From Phycisphaera sp. (GTDB taxonomy: Bacteria > Planctomycetota > Phycisphaerae > Phycisphaerales > Zrk34): a stretch of DNA of 64,000 nt. The notes under the pieces were generated by a model that had not been told where the DNA came from, did no database searches, and saw only the letters and a program-made list of their open reading frames with translations. This document shows, piece by piece, positions 22,725 to 29,162 of the stretch. Position numbers and translations under genes: made by a program. The stretch covers positions 62,001 to 126,000 of the forward strand of contig WGMA01000011.1 of the NCBI GenBank assembly GCA_016125285.1. The letters run 5' to 3'. How positions within the stretch are numbered: the stretch's first letter is position 1; the number at the start of each line of letters is the position of its first letter.

Positions 22725-23534
22725 CTACAGCTGCGAGCCGTCGAGCGACTTGATCTGGTTGCCATCGAGGTGGATGCCGCACTCGGTCTTGCCAAGCCCC
22801 GCCCAGCGTCCGCTGCGCGGATCCTCGCCCTCTTTGACCGGCCGCGTGCACACCGGCGTGTTGCAGCCGATGGACGGATAGCCCTGGTCGTACAGCGGGT
22901 TGTACGGCACCTTCTGGTCGTGGATGTACCGCCACATCTGCTTGTCGTCCCACAGCGCCACGGGGTTGAACTTCACCATCCCGTTGACCGCGTCCCACAG
23001 CACGACGGGCATGTTCGCACGCGAGGGGTTGTGCCCGCGGCGCATGCCGGTGATCCACGCCGCCTTGCCACGCAGGTGCTTGCGCTGCGGCTCGACCTTG
23101 CGCATGTAGCAGCACTTGTCGACGCCCTCGGCGCCCTGCTCGTAGAGGTGTCCGCCGAACTTCTTCTGCTGGTGATCCCACGACAGGTCCGCGGCGACGC
23201 GCACGGCGCGGAAGCCGTACTTCTCCTGCAGGCGGAGTCGCGTCTGGTGCGTCTCGGCGAACAGCACGCCGGTGTCGAGGTAGAACACCTCGGTATCGTT
23301 GAGCAGGTCCAGTTGCTTGAGCATGTCGACCATGACGACCGACTGCATGCCGAAGGAGCACGCGAGCGAAACGCCCGGGCGGTAGTGCTCCACGGCGTAT
23401 CGCAGGATATCCTGCGGCGGCTTGTTCTCGAGGTCCGCGGCGACGGCGGCGAGCTCGTCGATCTTCTGCTGAAGCTCGGCGGCGTCGGCGTCCGACTCGG
23501 CGGGTTGTGCTTGCTGTTGTTCCACGGTCGACAT
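22725..23534 (-). CDS. cysH: assimilatory APS reductase (CysH family, iron-sulfur type)
   Basis: This enzyme reduces adenylyl sulfate to sulfite with thioredoxin. The 269 residues show the adenylyl-binding ACSFGMQSVVMVDML, the YLDTGVLFAET block, KCCYMRKVEP (Cys141-Cys142) and the C-terminal catalytic ECGIH (Cys252). The double Cys and the second Cys pair are ligands of the [4Fe-4S] cluster that marks APS- rather than PAPS-type enzymes. The second pair is unusual: Cys224 and Cys229 are in GCNTPVCTR (CX4C), where CX2C (GCxPCTR) is usual. AGGAG precedes the ATG at 23534. It has its own promoter and a cysteine-rich leader ORF 63 bases upstream, apart from the rest of the sulfur island. Confidence 0.92.
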   Translation of the reverse strand: MSTVEQQQAQPAESDADAAELQQKIDELAAVAADLENKPPQDILRYAVEHYRPGVSLACSFGMQSVVMVDMLKQLDLLNDTEVFYLDTGVLFAETHQTRLRLQEKYGFRAVRVAADLSWDHQQKKFGGHLYEQGAEGVDKCCYMRKVEPQRKHLRGKAAWITGMRRGHNPSRANMPVVLWDAVNGMVKFNPVALWDDKQMWRYIHDQKVPYNPLYDQGYPSIGCNTPVCTRPVKEGEDPRSGRWAGLGKTECGIHLDGNQIKSLDGSQL

Positions 23535-23597
23535 GGCTGACCGTCTCCTGTGCTGGCTGGTTCGGGTTGGGGTGAGCTACGACGCGCCGCACACGCG

Positions 23598-23681
23598 TCA
23601 ACAACACGTGCCACAACAACAGCAACAGGCGCACAGGTGCCGGTTGGTCGTGGTCGTCATGCGGTGAGCGGTCGTCTTCAT
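23598..23681 (-). CDS. 27-residue polycysteine leader peptide before cysH
   Basis: The frame opens at ATG 23681 after GGGAACGAGC and closes with TGA 63 bases before the cysH start. Residues 16-27 are LCACCCCCGTCC, giving eight cysteines, five of them consecutive (TGC/TGT codons). A second in-frame Met is residue 8, preceded and followed by Thr codons. A candidate promoter lies about 36 bases upstream. Position, size, and a run of the codons for the end product of the pathway are those of an attenuation or ribosome-stalling leader. Polycysteine leaders are known before cysteine genes in actinobacteria; that this one is functional is inference. Confidence 0.65.
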   Translation of the reverse strand: MKTTAHRMTTTTNRHLCACCCCCGTCC

Positions 23682-23723
23682 GCTCGTTCCCGAAGGCCTT
23701 GACGGTCGGTCGGTTACGGGATC

Positions 23724-23752
23724 ATCGTATCGGTCCGCCCGGCGCGGATCAA
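23724..23752 (-). promoter_or_regulatory. candidate promoter of the leader-cysH unit
   Basis: On the minus strand TTGATC (23747-23752) and TACGAT (23724-23729) are spaced by exactly 17 bases. The predicted start is about 35 bases before the leader ATG. Confidence 0.5.
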
Positions 23753-23878: not shown

Positions 23879-24154
23879 TCACCCGCCCGCGATCGCCGGG
23901 ATGATCGACAGCTCGTCGCCGTCCTTCACCGCCGTCGCCGGGCCGTCCTGGAAGCGGATGTCCTCGTCGTTGAGGAACACGTTGACGAACTTGCGGAGGT
24001 TGCCGCTGTCGTCACAAAGCCGCTCCTTCAAGGCCGGGTACTGCGACTGGAGGCTGACGATCGCCTCCTGCACCGTGCCGCCCTCGGCGGAGACGGTCTC
24101 GTTGTCGTCGGTGAACTTGCGAAGCGGGGTCGGGATGCGAACGGTCACTGCCAT
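23879..24154 (-). CDS. CysO/MoaD/ThiS-like sulfur carrier protein
   Basis: This is a ubiquitin-fold protein of 91 residues ending in IIPAIAGG, the free C-terminal Gly-Gly needed for adenylation and thiocarboxylation. It starts MAVTVRIPTPLRKF and has FVNVFLNDEDIRF in the middle, closely matching the carrier domain of the fused protein at 27146-28588. In mycobacteria CysO-thiocarboxylate donates sulfur to CysM. Here a CysM-like synthase, a JAMM peptidase and an E1 are all in the same island, so the same pathway is likely. It is probably cotranscribed with the threonine-synthase-like gene under the SAM-I riboswitch. Confidence 0.87.
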   Translation of the reverse strand: MAVTVRIPTPLRKFTDDNETVSAEGGTVQEAIVSLQSQYPALKERLCDDSGNLRKFVNVFLNDEDIRFQDGPATAVKDGDELSIIPAIAGG

Positions 24155-24211: not shown

Positions 24212-25483
<1,272 letters not shown>

Positions 25484-25621: not shown

Positions 25622-25741
25622 CGCCCTTATCTACCCCCGGCCCGGCTCACACGCCGGATCAGGGCTGGAATTGGCACCTCTCCCATATGGGCGGTTGCCG
25701 CGGCTTCAAAGGGCCAGTCCCTCCACCGCTCTTGATAAGAC
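25622..25741 (-). promoter_or_regulatory. SAM-I (S-box) riboswitch aptamer
   Basis: Read on the minus strand, all core blocks of SAM-I are present in order: CTTATCAAGAG (P1 and start of P2), GGTGGAGGGACTGGCCC (kink-turn), TTTGAAGCC-GCGGCAACC, GGTGCCAATTCC, and GATAAG closing P1. SAM binding stabilises the aptamer and lets the downstream terminator form, so thrC and the sulfur-carrier gene should be off when SAM is high. Confidence 0.96.
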
Positions 25742-27145: not shown

Positions 27146-28588
27146 TTAGTACTTCGGCACCGACGGGTCGACCTGCTCGGACCAGGCGTTCATCCCGCCC
27201 CACATGTTGCGGACCTTCTCGTAGCCCTGGTCACGCAGGAAGCTCACCGCCTTGGCCGAGCGGCCGCCCATCTTGCAGTGCACAATGATGTCGGCGTCCT
27301 TGTCGATCTCGCCGACGCGCTTGGGCAGCTGGTCCAGCGGGATCAGCGTGCCGCCGATGTTGCAGATCTCGTACTCGTGCTCCTGGCGGACGTCGAGGAC
27401 AAACACCGGCGCCTTCGCGTCGAGCAGGTCCTTGACCTCACGCGGCATCACGTCCCACGGCGTCTGCGGCTCGACCTTCGCCGCCTCGCTCTTGCCCTCC
27501 GGCTCGTCGGGGATGCCGCAGAACTGCTTGTAATCGATCAGTTCCTTGATCGTTGGGTTGTCACCGCAGATCGGGCACGCCGGGTCGCGACGGATCTTCA
27601 TCTCGCGGAACTTCATCGCCAGCGCGTCGAACAGCAGCAGTCGGCCGTTGAGCGTCGTGCCCGTGCCGAGCAGGATCTTGATGCCCTCGGTCGCCTGGAT
27701 CACGCCGATGATGCCCGGCAGGATGCCCAGCACGCCGCCCTCGGCGCAGCTCGGCACGAGGCCCGGGTCCGGCGGCTCGGGGTACAGGCAGCGGTAGCAA
27801 GGCCCGCCCTGATAGCCGAACACGCTGGCCTGACCATCGAAGCGGAAGATCGAGCCGTACACGTTGGGCTTGCCCAGCAGGATGCACACGTCGTTGACGA
27901 GGTACCGCGTGGGGAAGTTGTCCGTGCCGTCGATGACCATGTCGTACTTCTCGACGATGCCCATCGCGTTGGCGCTGGTCAGCGGCTCGTTGTAGATCTC
28001 GACCTCGACGTTCGGGTTGATCGAGTTGATCGTCCGCTTGGCCGACTCGGCCTTGGGGCGGCCGACGTCTTCGGTGCCGTGGATGATCTGACGCTGGAGG
28101 TTCGAGAAGTCGACCATGTCGAACTCGACGATGCCGAGTCGCCCGACGCCCGCAGCGGCGAGGTACATCGCCAGCGGCGAGCCGAGGCCGCCCGCGCCGA
28201 TCAGCAGGATGCTCGACGCCTTGAGCTTGCGCTGCCCCTCCATGCCGACCTCCGGCAGGATCAGGTGCCGCGCGTAGCGCTCGATCTCTTCCTTGCTCAG
28301 CGTCGGCAGGTCGGCGCCGCCCGCGACGGCGGGCACGATCGCCACCTCGTCGCCAGCCTTCACCGGCGTGTCGGCCTGCTGCTGATCGCGGATGTTGTCG
28401 TCGTTGACGAACACGTTCACGAAGCTGCGCAGCTTGCCGTCGTCGGCGAACAGGTGCGGCTTGAGCGCCGGGTGCTTCGCGGCGAGGTTCTTCATCACCT
28501 CACCCACGGTCGCCCCGTCGAGCTCGGCCGTATCCGCCCCGTCGGCGTAAGACCGCAGCGCGGTCGGAATCATCACTGTCACGGACAT
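27146..28588 (-). CDS. fused sulfur carrier / MoeB-type E1 / rhodanese
   Basis: Residues 1-91 are a MoaD/CysO-like ubiquitin fold ending in IVPAVAGG. Residues ~97-350 are a MoeB/ThiF E1-like enzyme with the nucleotide-binding GAGGLGSPLAMYLAAAG, DGTDNFPTRYL, the zinc Cys pairs PCYRC and CPIC, and PSCAEGG with the candidate adenylate-attacking Cys. Residues ~375-480 are a rhodanese with active-site loop VHCKMGGRSAKA. E1-rhodanese fusions are well known (MoeZ, MOCS3 type); fusion of the carrier itself at the N-terminus is not usual. GGAG before ATG 28588 favours this start over 28600. Its likely job is to activate the carrier and load it with sulfur for cysteine synthesis. The fused Gly-Gly is internal, so the domain cannot be thiocarboxylated unless cut after Gly91. 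Confidence 0.94.
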   Translation of the reverse strand: MSVTVMIPTALRSYADGADTAELDGATVGEVMKNLAAKHPALKPHLFADDGKLRSFVNVFVNDDNIRDQQQADTPVKAGDEVAIVPAVAGGADLPTLSKEEIERYARHLILPEVGMEGQRKLKASSILLIGAGGLGSPLAMYLAAAGVGRLGIVEFDMVDFSNLQRQIIHGTEDVGRPKAESAKRTINSINPNVEVEIYNEPLTSANAMGIVEKYDMVIDGTDNFPTRYLVNDVCILLGKPNVYGSIFRFDGQASVFGYQGGPCYRCLYPEPPDPGLVPSCAEGGVLGILPGIIGVIQATEGIKILLGTGTTLNGRLLLFDALAMKFREMKIRRDPACPICGDNPTIKELIDYKQFCGIPDEPEGKSEAAKVEPQTPWDVMPREVKDLLDAKAPVFVLDVRQEHEYEICNIGGTLIPLDQLPKRVGEIDKDADIIVHCKMGGRSAKAVSFLRDQGYEKVRNMWGGMNAWSEQVDPSVPKY

Positions 28589-28600
28589 GGTCGTCTCCAT

Positions 28601-28702
28601 TTTTGAATTTTGATTCTTGATTTCGGATCTGGTGACGAGCCATTCGGCGCGCCGTCCCTCTCCGCTAGATCAAAAATCAAAAATCCAAATTCAAAATTTC
28701 AA
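28601..28702. repeat. AT-rich inverted repeat, family E
   Basis: The arms at 28601-28624 and 28668-28702 are built of TTTTGAATTTTGATT words and their complements, contrasting with GC-rich surroundings. The right arm codes the last residues and stop of the JAMM protein. Confidence 0.65.
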
Positions 28703-29162
28703 TCCCAACAGGTTCAAAATCGCTTCTATCGTCGCTCAGGTTCCAGCACGTCATCTCGGCCGACTTTCCCTGCATCACCGACACGATCACGAACGCGCTG
28801 TTCGGCCAGGTCGCGTTCTCCAGATCGCTGCCGCCGGTCTCACCGGTCGCCGATGCGGACACGGTGTGCGGCTTGGACGGGATCGCGCGGCTGTCCGGAT
28901 GCGAATGATAATGTCCAATCACGCTCAGTCCACGCGCCCGCGCTTCCTTCTCGGCCCGCAGCGACGCGATCGGCGTGATCTCGAAGCGGTTGTGCGCCTC
29001 TTCCTCACCCTTCGAATTCGTCGCCGGCACCACCGCGTCGACCGTCCACAGGTCTTTGCCGAGCAGGAACCCGCAGCACTCGTGCGGGTAGATGCGTTCC
29101 GCATGGGCCCGCATCGCTTTATCATCTTCGACCGATATACGTAGCTTCAACAGTCTTACCAC
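28677..29162 (-). CDS. JAMM/MPN+ metallopeptidase (Mec-like)
   Basis: The 161-residue protein starts with GTG at 29162, overlapping the upstream gene by 7 bases; the start is supported by the first strand LLKLRISVED. It shows RIYPHECCGFLLG with the catalytic Glu28, and GHYHSHPDSRAIPS with metal His86 and His88 and Ser96. The third ligand, normally Asp three residues after the Ser, is replaced by His99, while Asp113 in GSDLENATWP stands where the usual TDLxxAWP block resumes after a ~14-residue insertion. In actinobacteria the JAMM protein Mec removes cysteine from CysO. The last residues EILNLDF come from an AT-rich repeat. The role here is probably to release cysteine from the carrier or to cut the fused carrier. 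Confidence 0.85.
   Translation of the reverse strand: MVRLLKLRISVEDDKAMRAHAERIYPHECCGFLLGKDLWTVDAVVPATNSKGEEEAHNRFEITPIASLRAEKEARARGLSVIGHYHSHPDSRAIPSKPHTVSASATGETGGSDLENATWPNSAFVIVSVMQGKSAEMTCWNLSDDRSDFEPVGIEILNLDF

Follow-up and report, generated by a model that had tools for sequence, protein, structure and literature searches.

Cysteine leader peptides described in other bacteria

Transcription attenuators of the trp and his type combine a short reading frame with codons for the end product of the pathway, a stop codon lying over the antiterminator strand, and a terminator that is exclusive with the antiterminator and ends in a U-run. The described leaders that were found to use cysteine codons come from Actinobacteria (cys operons and cbs) and from Rhodobacterales (cysS). 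For the actinobacterial cys operons, cysteine leaders without terminators have been predicted in Mycobacterium, Propionibacterium acnes and Bifidobacterium (PMC1262725). Furthermore, leaderless polycysteine short ORFs have been shown in mycobacteria by Canestrari et al. 2020, as reported in later papers (PMC9094748, PMC9031893, PMC13236596). These papers and the earlier prediction agree with the statement in a sequence-only reading of the present DNA that polycysteine leaders precede cysteine genes in actinobacteria. In Rhodobacterales, the uORFC-8-2 motif consists of a Cys leader and a terminator before cysS, for which transcription attenuation has been proposed (PMC8632094). The same reading knew of no such leader in a planctomycete; in agreement with this, a search of open-licence papers, in itself weak evidence, returned no report of a cysteine leader in planctomycetes, in Chloroflexota or before cysH.

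The leader frame and its locus

The window, which is the whole stretch of 64,000 nucleotides that was analysed, contains a short frame upstream of cysH that is probably a real and functional cysteine leader, as judged from sequence. The frame had been described as having 27 codons with eight Cys, five of them consecutive, and as ending 63 bases before cysH. Both statements proved exact: the ATG is at 23681 and the stop at 23598, the run occupies codons 19-23, and the ATG of cysH is at 23534-23532. The same-strand order is SAM riboswitch, threonine-synthase-like PLP enzyme, CysO-like carrier, leader and cysH, with the following features:

25624-25741, minus strand: SAM riboswitch (85.1 bits), upstream of the PLP enzyme, cysO and cysH
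24212-25483, minus strand: threonine-synthase-like PLP enzyme, upstream of cysO
23879-24154, minus strand: cysO-like sulfur-carrier protein of the ThiS family, ending in GG; upstream neighbour
23747-23752, minus strand: candidate -35 box TTGATC, matching 4 of 6 consensus bases, 17 nt from the -10 box
23724-23729, minus strand: candidate -10 box TACGAT, with the leader ATG 42 nt downstream
23688-23691, minus strand: weak ribosome site GGGA, 6 nt 5' of the leader start, read directly
23598-23681, minus strand: leader ORF MKTTAHRMTTTTNRHLCACCCCCGTCC followed by its stop, read directly and backed by shuffles and TGT bias
23601-23633, minus strand: putative regulatory stretch (codons 17-27) with eight Cys codons, of which six are TGT, a rare choice in this neighbourhood
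23581-23599, minus strand: GACGCG/CGCGTC hairpin from the leader stop codon onward, with no U-run after it
23545-23549, minus strand: cysH Shine-Dalgarno AGGAG; the overlapping GCACAGG complements CCTGTGC of leader codons 16-17
22725-23534, minus strand: cysH, (phospho)adenylyl-sulfate reductase, the presumed target

The identity of CysH was confirmed via NCBIfam and Pfam. The leader had also been credited with its own promoter and ribosome site. The 17-spaced letters are indeed present, with TTGATC-17-TACGAT matching 8 of 12 consensus bases, but both elements are weak, and a promoter scan of the window reported none, the candidate falling under its threshold. The GACGCG/CGCGTC hairpin was considered as an intrinsic terminator and rejected because a downstream U-run is absent, and no intrinsic terminator was found on the minus strand of the window between leader and cysH. 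Ahead of the ATP sulfurylase of the source genome, no Cys leader was found.

Several observations on the surroundings stand apart from the leader. The SAM riboswitch, also detected in two relatives discussed below (loci L047 of G006 and L048 of G002), hints that the threonine-synthase-like paralogue may make homocysteine and not threonine. Further along the minus strand, a fusion of ThiS-like carrier, MoeB/ThiF-like E1 and rhodanese (27146-28600) adjoins a Prok-JAB (JAMM) protease (28677-29162), which together form a compact ubiquitin-like sulfur-carrier system. In the window CysH, residues 224-229 form the C-x4-C motif (CNTPVC) of family f1, compared to C-x2-C in the CysH of L010.

Recurrence in close relatives

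The window belongs to family f1, which, like f8 and f19 below, is a label assigned by the tool; all three presumably fall within the class Phycisphaerae. The f1 sample comprised nine genomes, all of which have cysH. The cysH tree joins the window and G002 as a sister pair (support 81/86), within a clade that also holds G004 and G006 (100/91), the latter being Planctomycetales bacterium ZRK34, which NCBI places under Planctomycetia. The cysO-cysH locus is common to these four genomes. In G002, the gap between cysO and cysH encodes the Cys-rich peptide MELDQMFTDSTAKSCCSICCGVCM at the same position as in the window, on the assumption that translation starts at a GTG codon. Its Cys density was matched by 1 of 3000 shuffles, and the similarity to the window peptide goes beyond composition (p = 0.009). 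A promoter TTGAAC-17-TATGAT lies 46 nt upstream of the leader start, compared to 42 nt in the window.

The sequence-only reading had named loss of the Cys codons in close relatives as evidence against a leader, and on this point the outcome is mixed. The leader ORF is present in only 2 of the 9 f1 genomes, and its absence from the other seven counts against a cysteine-sensing leader. However, five of these lack a comparable locus, since no cysO was seen adjoining cysH, and a convincing leader was found in none of them. G006 has no separate ORF, but its cysO ends in GGCCC and a stop, and the cysH match begins 94 nt further on; G004 alone retains the locus with neither leader ORF nor Cys tail on cysO. 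Cys codons thus recur in three of the four comparable f1 loci and are absent from one.

With the GGCCC terminus of G006 CysO (L047 4870-4906), the tail would have to be removed to uncover the di-glycine, a step that the JAMM protease encoded in the same cluster might carry out. Planctomycete CysO proteins often carry a short tail beyond GG; a Cys tail was not found as a general trait, with CCC in 0 of 30 loci. A different sequence block, ATCTGGACCCTTGGGCCGCA, is common to the region upstream of cysH in two f1 genomes of genus g2 (L007 and L008).

Predicted attenuators before cysH in families f8 and f19

A polycysteine ORF, for example one ending in CARCCCCCCCIKCLGGAS and a stop, precedes about nine in ten cysH genes of families f8 and f19, and an intrinsic terminator comes next. 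At a threshold of five or more Cys within 10 residues, leaders were counted at 14 of 19 cysH loci in f19, 3 of 4 in f8, 2 of 9 in f1, 11 of 15 in Chloroflexota and 0 of 15 in f6, compared to 1 of 85 on the reverse strand, 0 of 85 inside genes and 0.2% of shuffles. The f8 and f19 leaders prefer TGT as well (188 TGT to 104 TGC, versus 58 to 189 in cysH; p = 5e-22). Their promoters are TTGACA-like, and the distance from the -10 box to an in-frame ATG is 5-11 nt at 34 of 38 loci, versus a background of 7.5%; these ORFs therefore look leaderless.

At 40 non-redundant loci, including one f2 locus, a strong GC hairpin with a U-run begins 23-63 nt past the leader stop. The loop and 3' arm of this terminator hairpin find their complement in the final codons of the ORF (AGGAAC..., AGGAGC... 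or GACAC...), and across 38 loci matched leader ends and terminators pair better than swapped ones (z = 4.9, 0 of 500 permutations). In an alignment of 19 sequences, 98% of cells are paired in the terminator and 81% in the rival helix, each with 18 doubly changed cells, and both helices beat shuffled and slid controls in covariation score and in doubly changed cells. For the rival helix, the count of pairs with a double change alone fails to tell it from shuffles, and only some of the sequences can form its innermost pairs. Read from these alignments, f8 and f19 carry two mutually exclusive, covarying predicted helices, an arrangement that corresponds to a textbook transcription attenuator.

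In such a switch, a ribosome at the leader stop would hide the last codons (AGGA[A/G]C...) and let the terminator form. With the ribosome held back at the Cys run instead, the last codons would be free to pair with the terminator loop and 3' arm, so that cysH would be transcribed. Judged by known footprint sizes, the spacing of the last Cys codon would fit, with a stalled ribosome freeing AGGAAC and a ribosome on the stop codon covering it.

A covariance model run over 298 genomes of the class gave strong full-length hits before cysH with two exceptions, namely L180, at a contig edge and with a Cys leader, and L190 (G182), apparently a terminator on its own. Control of other genes by the f8/f19 attenuator was rejected on this basis. 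A search of the f8, f19 and window leaders against Rfam matched no family.

Leaders in Chloroflexota

In Chloroflexota, eleven MAG loci have leaders that end in CTCCCCDCTCACIRGVVV and a stop, or close variants of this. The start of these leaders overlaps the stop codon of the gene before them, and the cysH match lies 150-225 nt away; being close relatives, the loci represent few independent cases. At L054, L060, L062 and L066, where the overlap of the leader ATG with the upstream stop reads GAATGCGCGGTCTGA, translation of the leader may be coupled to that of the preceding gene, and the leader is followed by a strong GC hairpin lacking a U-run.

How the window leader may act

Taken by itself, the window leader is very likely a cysteine-sensing leader, and with the f8/f19 reading included, the window ORF likely encodes a regulatory leader peptide whose translation gauges the supply of charged tRNA-Cys. 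We infer that the leader is translated, that ribosomes stall on it and that it responds to cysteine. When cysteine is short, ribosomes would pause on the mostly-TGT run and expression of cysH would rise; when it is plentiful, they would reach the leader stop and cysH would stay low. The input is probably the same as in f8 and f19. The output must differ because the window has no U-tracted terminator, and our guess is that the leader acts either at translation initiation or through Rho-dependent termination. Action of the window leader on translation comes somewhat short of an even prospect.

A specific translational route, compatible with cysteine sensing by the leader, would have a stalled ribosome mask an anti-Shine-Dalgarno sequence in the leader and thereby free the cysH ribosome site. 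In G002, a perfect 10-nt complement links the leader to the cysH ribosome site (shuffle p = 0.002), which speaks for this route. The predicted accessibility of that site is about 0.4-0.6 with a ribosome at codons 4-16 and falls to 0.07-0.22 once the ribosome is past, and the folding model thus supports behaviour of this complement as a translational attenuator would show, although the GTG start of the G002 leader is an assumption. In the window the corresponding CCTGTGC/GCACAGG complement is 7 bp long and weak (shuffle p = 0.086). Folding did not support the proposal that a ribosome paused at the Cys codons opens the ribosome site of cysH in the window: the predicted accessibility is 0.65 both without a ribosome and with one on the Cys run. 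We regard this route as possible but leaning towards doubtful. RNA structure beyond that of shuffles was likewise rejected for the window leader, whose folding energy is no better than theirs (z = -0.03 and z = 0.64).

Alternatively, and also compatibly with cysteine sensing, release at the leader stop would bare the 63-nt spacer to Rho, and stalling would prevent this. The spacer GTAGCTCACCCCAACCCGAACCAGCCAGC, read directly, is C-rich and G-poor, which together with the absence of a U-tracted terminator agrees with such an output. However, the footprint of a ribosome paused at the Cys codons would reach just a few bases beyond the stop, and we consider Rho-dependent control rather unlikely.

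Chance and peptide function as alternatives

The Cys run could also be a functionless product of TGT/TGC slippage that happens to precede cysH. Runs of this kind are not rare as such: (TGY)5 has 22 overlapping matches genome-wide, versus 36 for a reversed control. Most of the other sites lie off-frame inside coding genes or in TGT microsatellite, and one microsatellite of about eleven TGT units occurs in the same genome as the window (L043, G000:C85:53457-53489). Furthermore, a Cys run is missing from the five f1 genomes without the shared locus and from G004, which has the locus. Against chance, the window leader is the only (TGY)5 found within a short intergenic ORF facing a gene, and that gene belongs to the cysteine pathway. 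Dinucleotide shuffling of the 344 nt between cysO and cysH never matched the Cys density of the leader (7 Cys in 10 residues; 0 of 3000), and the codons recur in G002 and in the cysO tail of G006. The leader uses 6 TGT and 2 TGC, versus 5 TGT and 41 TGC in nine neighbouring genes (p = 4e-4); a preference for the locally rare TGT would be expected of a stall-sensitive leader. Outside these families, a phylum-wide search took in 50 cysH loci, three of them from f1 (window included), and the remaining 47, from other planctomycete families, yielded one borderline candidate (L213, 4 Cys) and otherwise no leader. Chance is therefore improbable.

A function of the Cys-rich peptide itself, for example as a metal- or redox-binding small protein and not as a codon counter, is very improbable: Cys-dense peptides can bind metals, but the ORF sits in cis before cysH, the residues around the Cys are hardly conserved whereas the Cys codons and the TGT preference are, and f8 and f19 add their RNA helices.

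With cysteine sensing by the leader thus preferred, the earlier proposal of cysteine-dependent leader-peptide control gains support from the recurrence of Cys codons in G002 and in the G006 cysO tail, from a TGT bias that fits and from fully formed Cys attenuators before cysH within the class. The leader, its recurrence and the exclusive helices of f8 and f19 can all be read in the DNA itself. The window leader need not share its origin with these attenuators, because f1 cysH lies apart from f8 and f19 cysH in the tree. Tentatively, cysteine attenuators may have arisen or been rebuilt several times before cysH in Planctomycetota and Chloroflexota with differing outputs (a terminator type in f8 and f19, a non-terminator type in f1), the C-terminal codons of cysO in G006 acting as the sensing run in place of a separate leader ORF.

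Comparison with known systems

The class-level set of leaders, with its on/off RNA switch in f8 and f19, is apparently undescribed. Leaders before cysH in Planctomycetota and Chloroflexota suggest that charged tRNA-Cys governs sulfate assimilation well outside Actinobacteria and Rhodobacterales, and the f8/f19 version, a leaderless ORF with an intrinsic terminator, has a rival helix that is directly testable.

The window resembles the mycobacterial polycysteine ORFs in its contiguous Cys codons within a short ORF upstream of cysteine genes, and the Actinobacteria in having no obvious terminator. However, the window leader is not leaderless: its predicted 5' UTR is about 35 nt, with the ATG 42 nt past the candidate -10 box. 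The mycobacterial ORFs are leaderless (PMC9031893) and the f8/f19 ORFs look so too, whereas f8 and f19 carry the intrinsic terminator and antiterminator that are reported missing in Mycobacterium (PMC1262725). The uORFC-8-2 motif likewise combines a Cys-containing short ORF with an intrinsic terminator behind it, but it has two Cys codons only, precedes a cysteinyl-tRNA synthetase gene and belongs to another phylum (PMC8632094).

Compared to the trp and his attenuators, the window has the short ORF with end-product codons just upstream of a pathway gene, and is not filed with them because it lacks the terminator. In f8 and f19 both terminator and antiterminator are present; their antiterminator pairs with the terminator loop and 3' arm and not with the 5' arm, and their ORF appears leaderless, but they share with the trp and his systems the end-product codons, the stop codon over the antiterminator strand, the exclusive terminator and the U-run.
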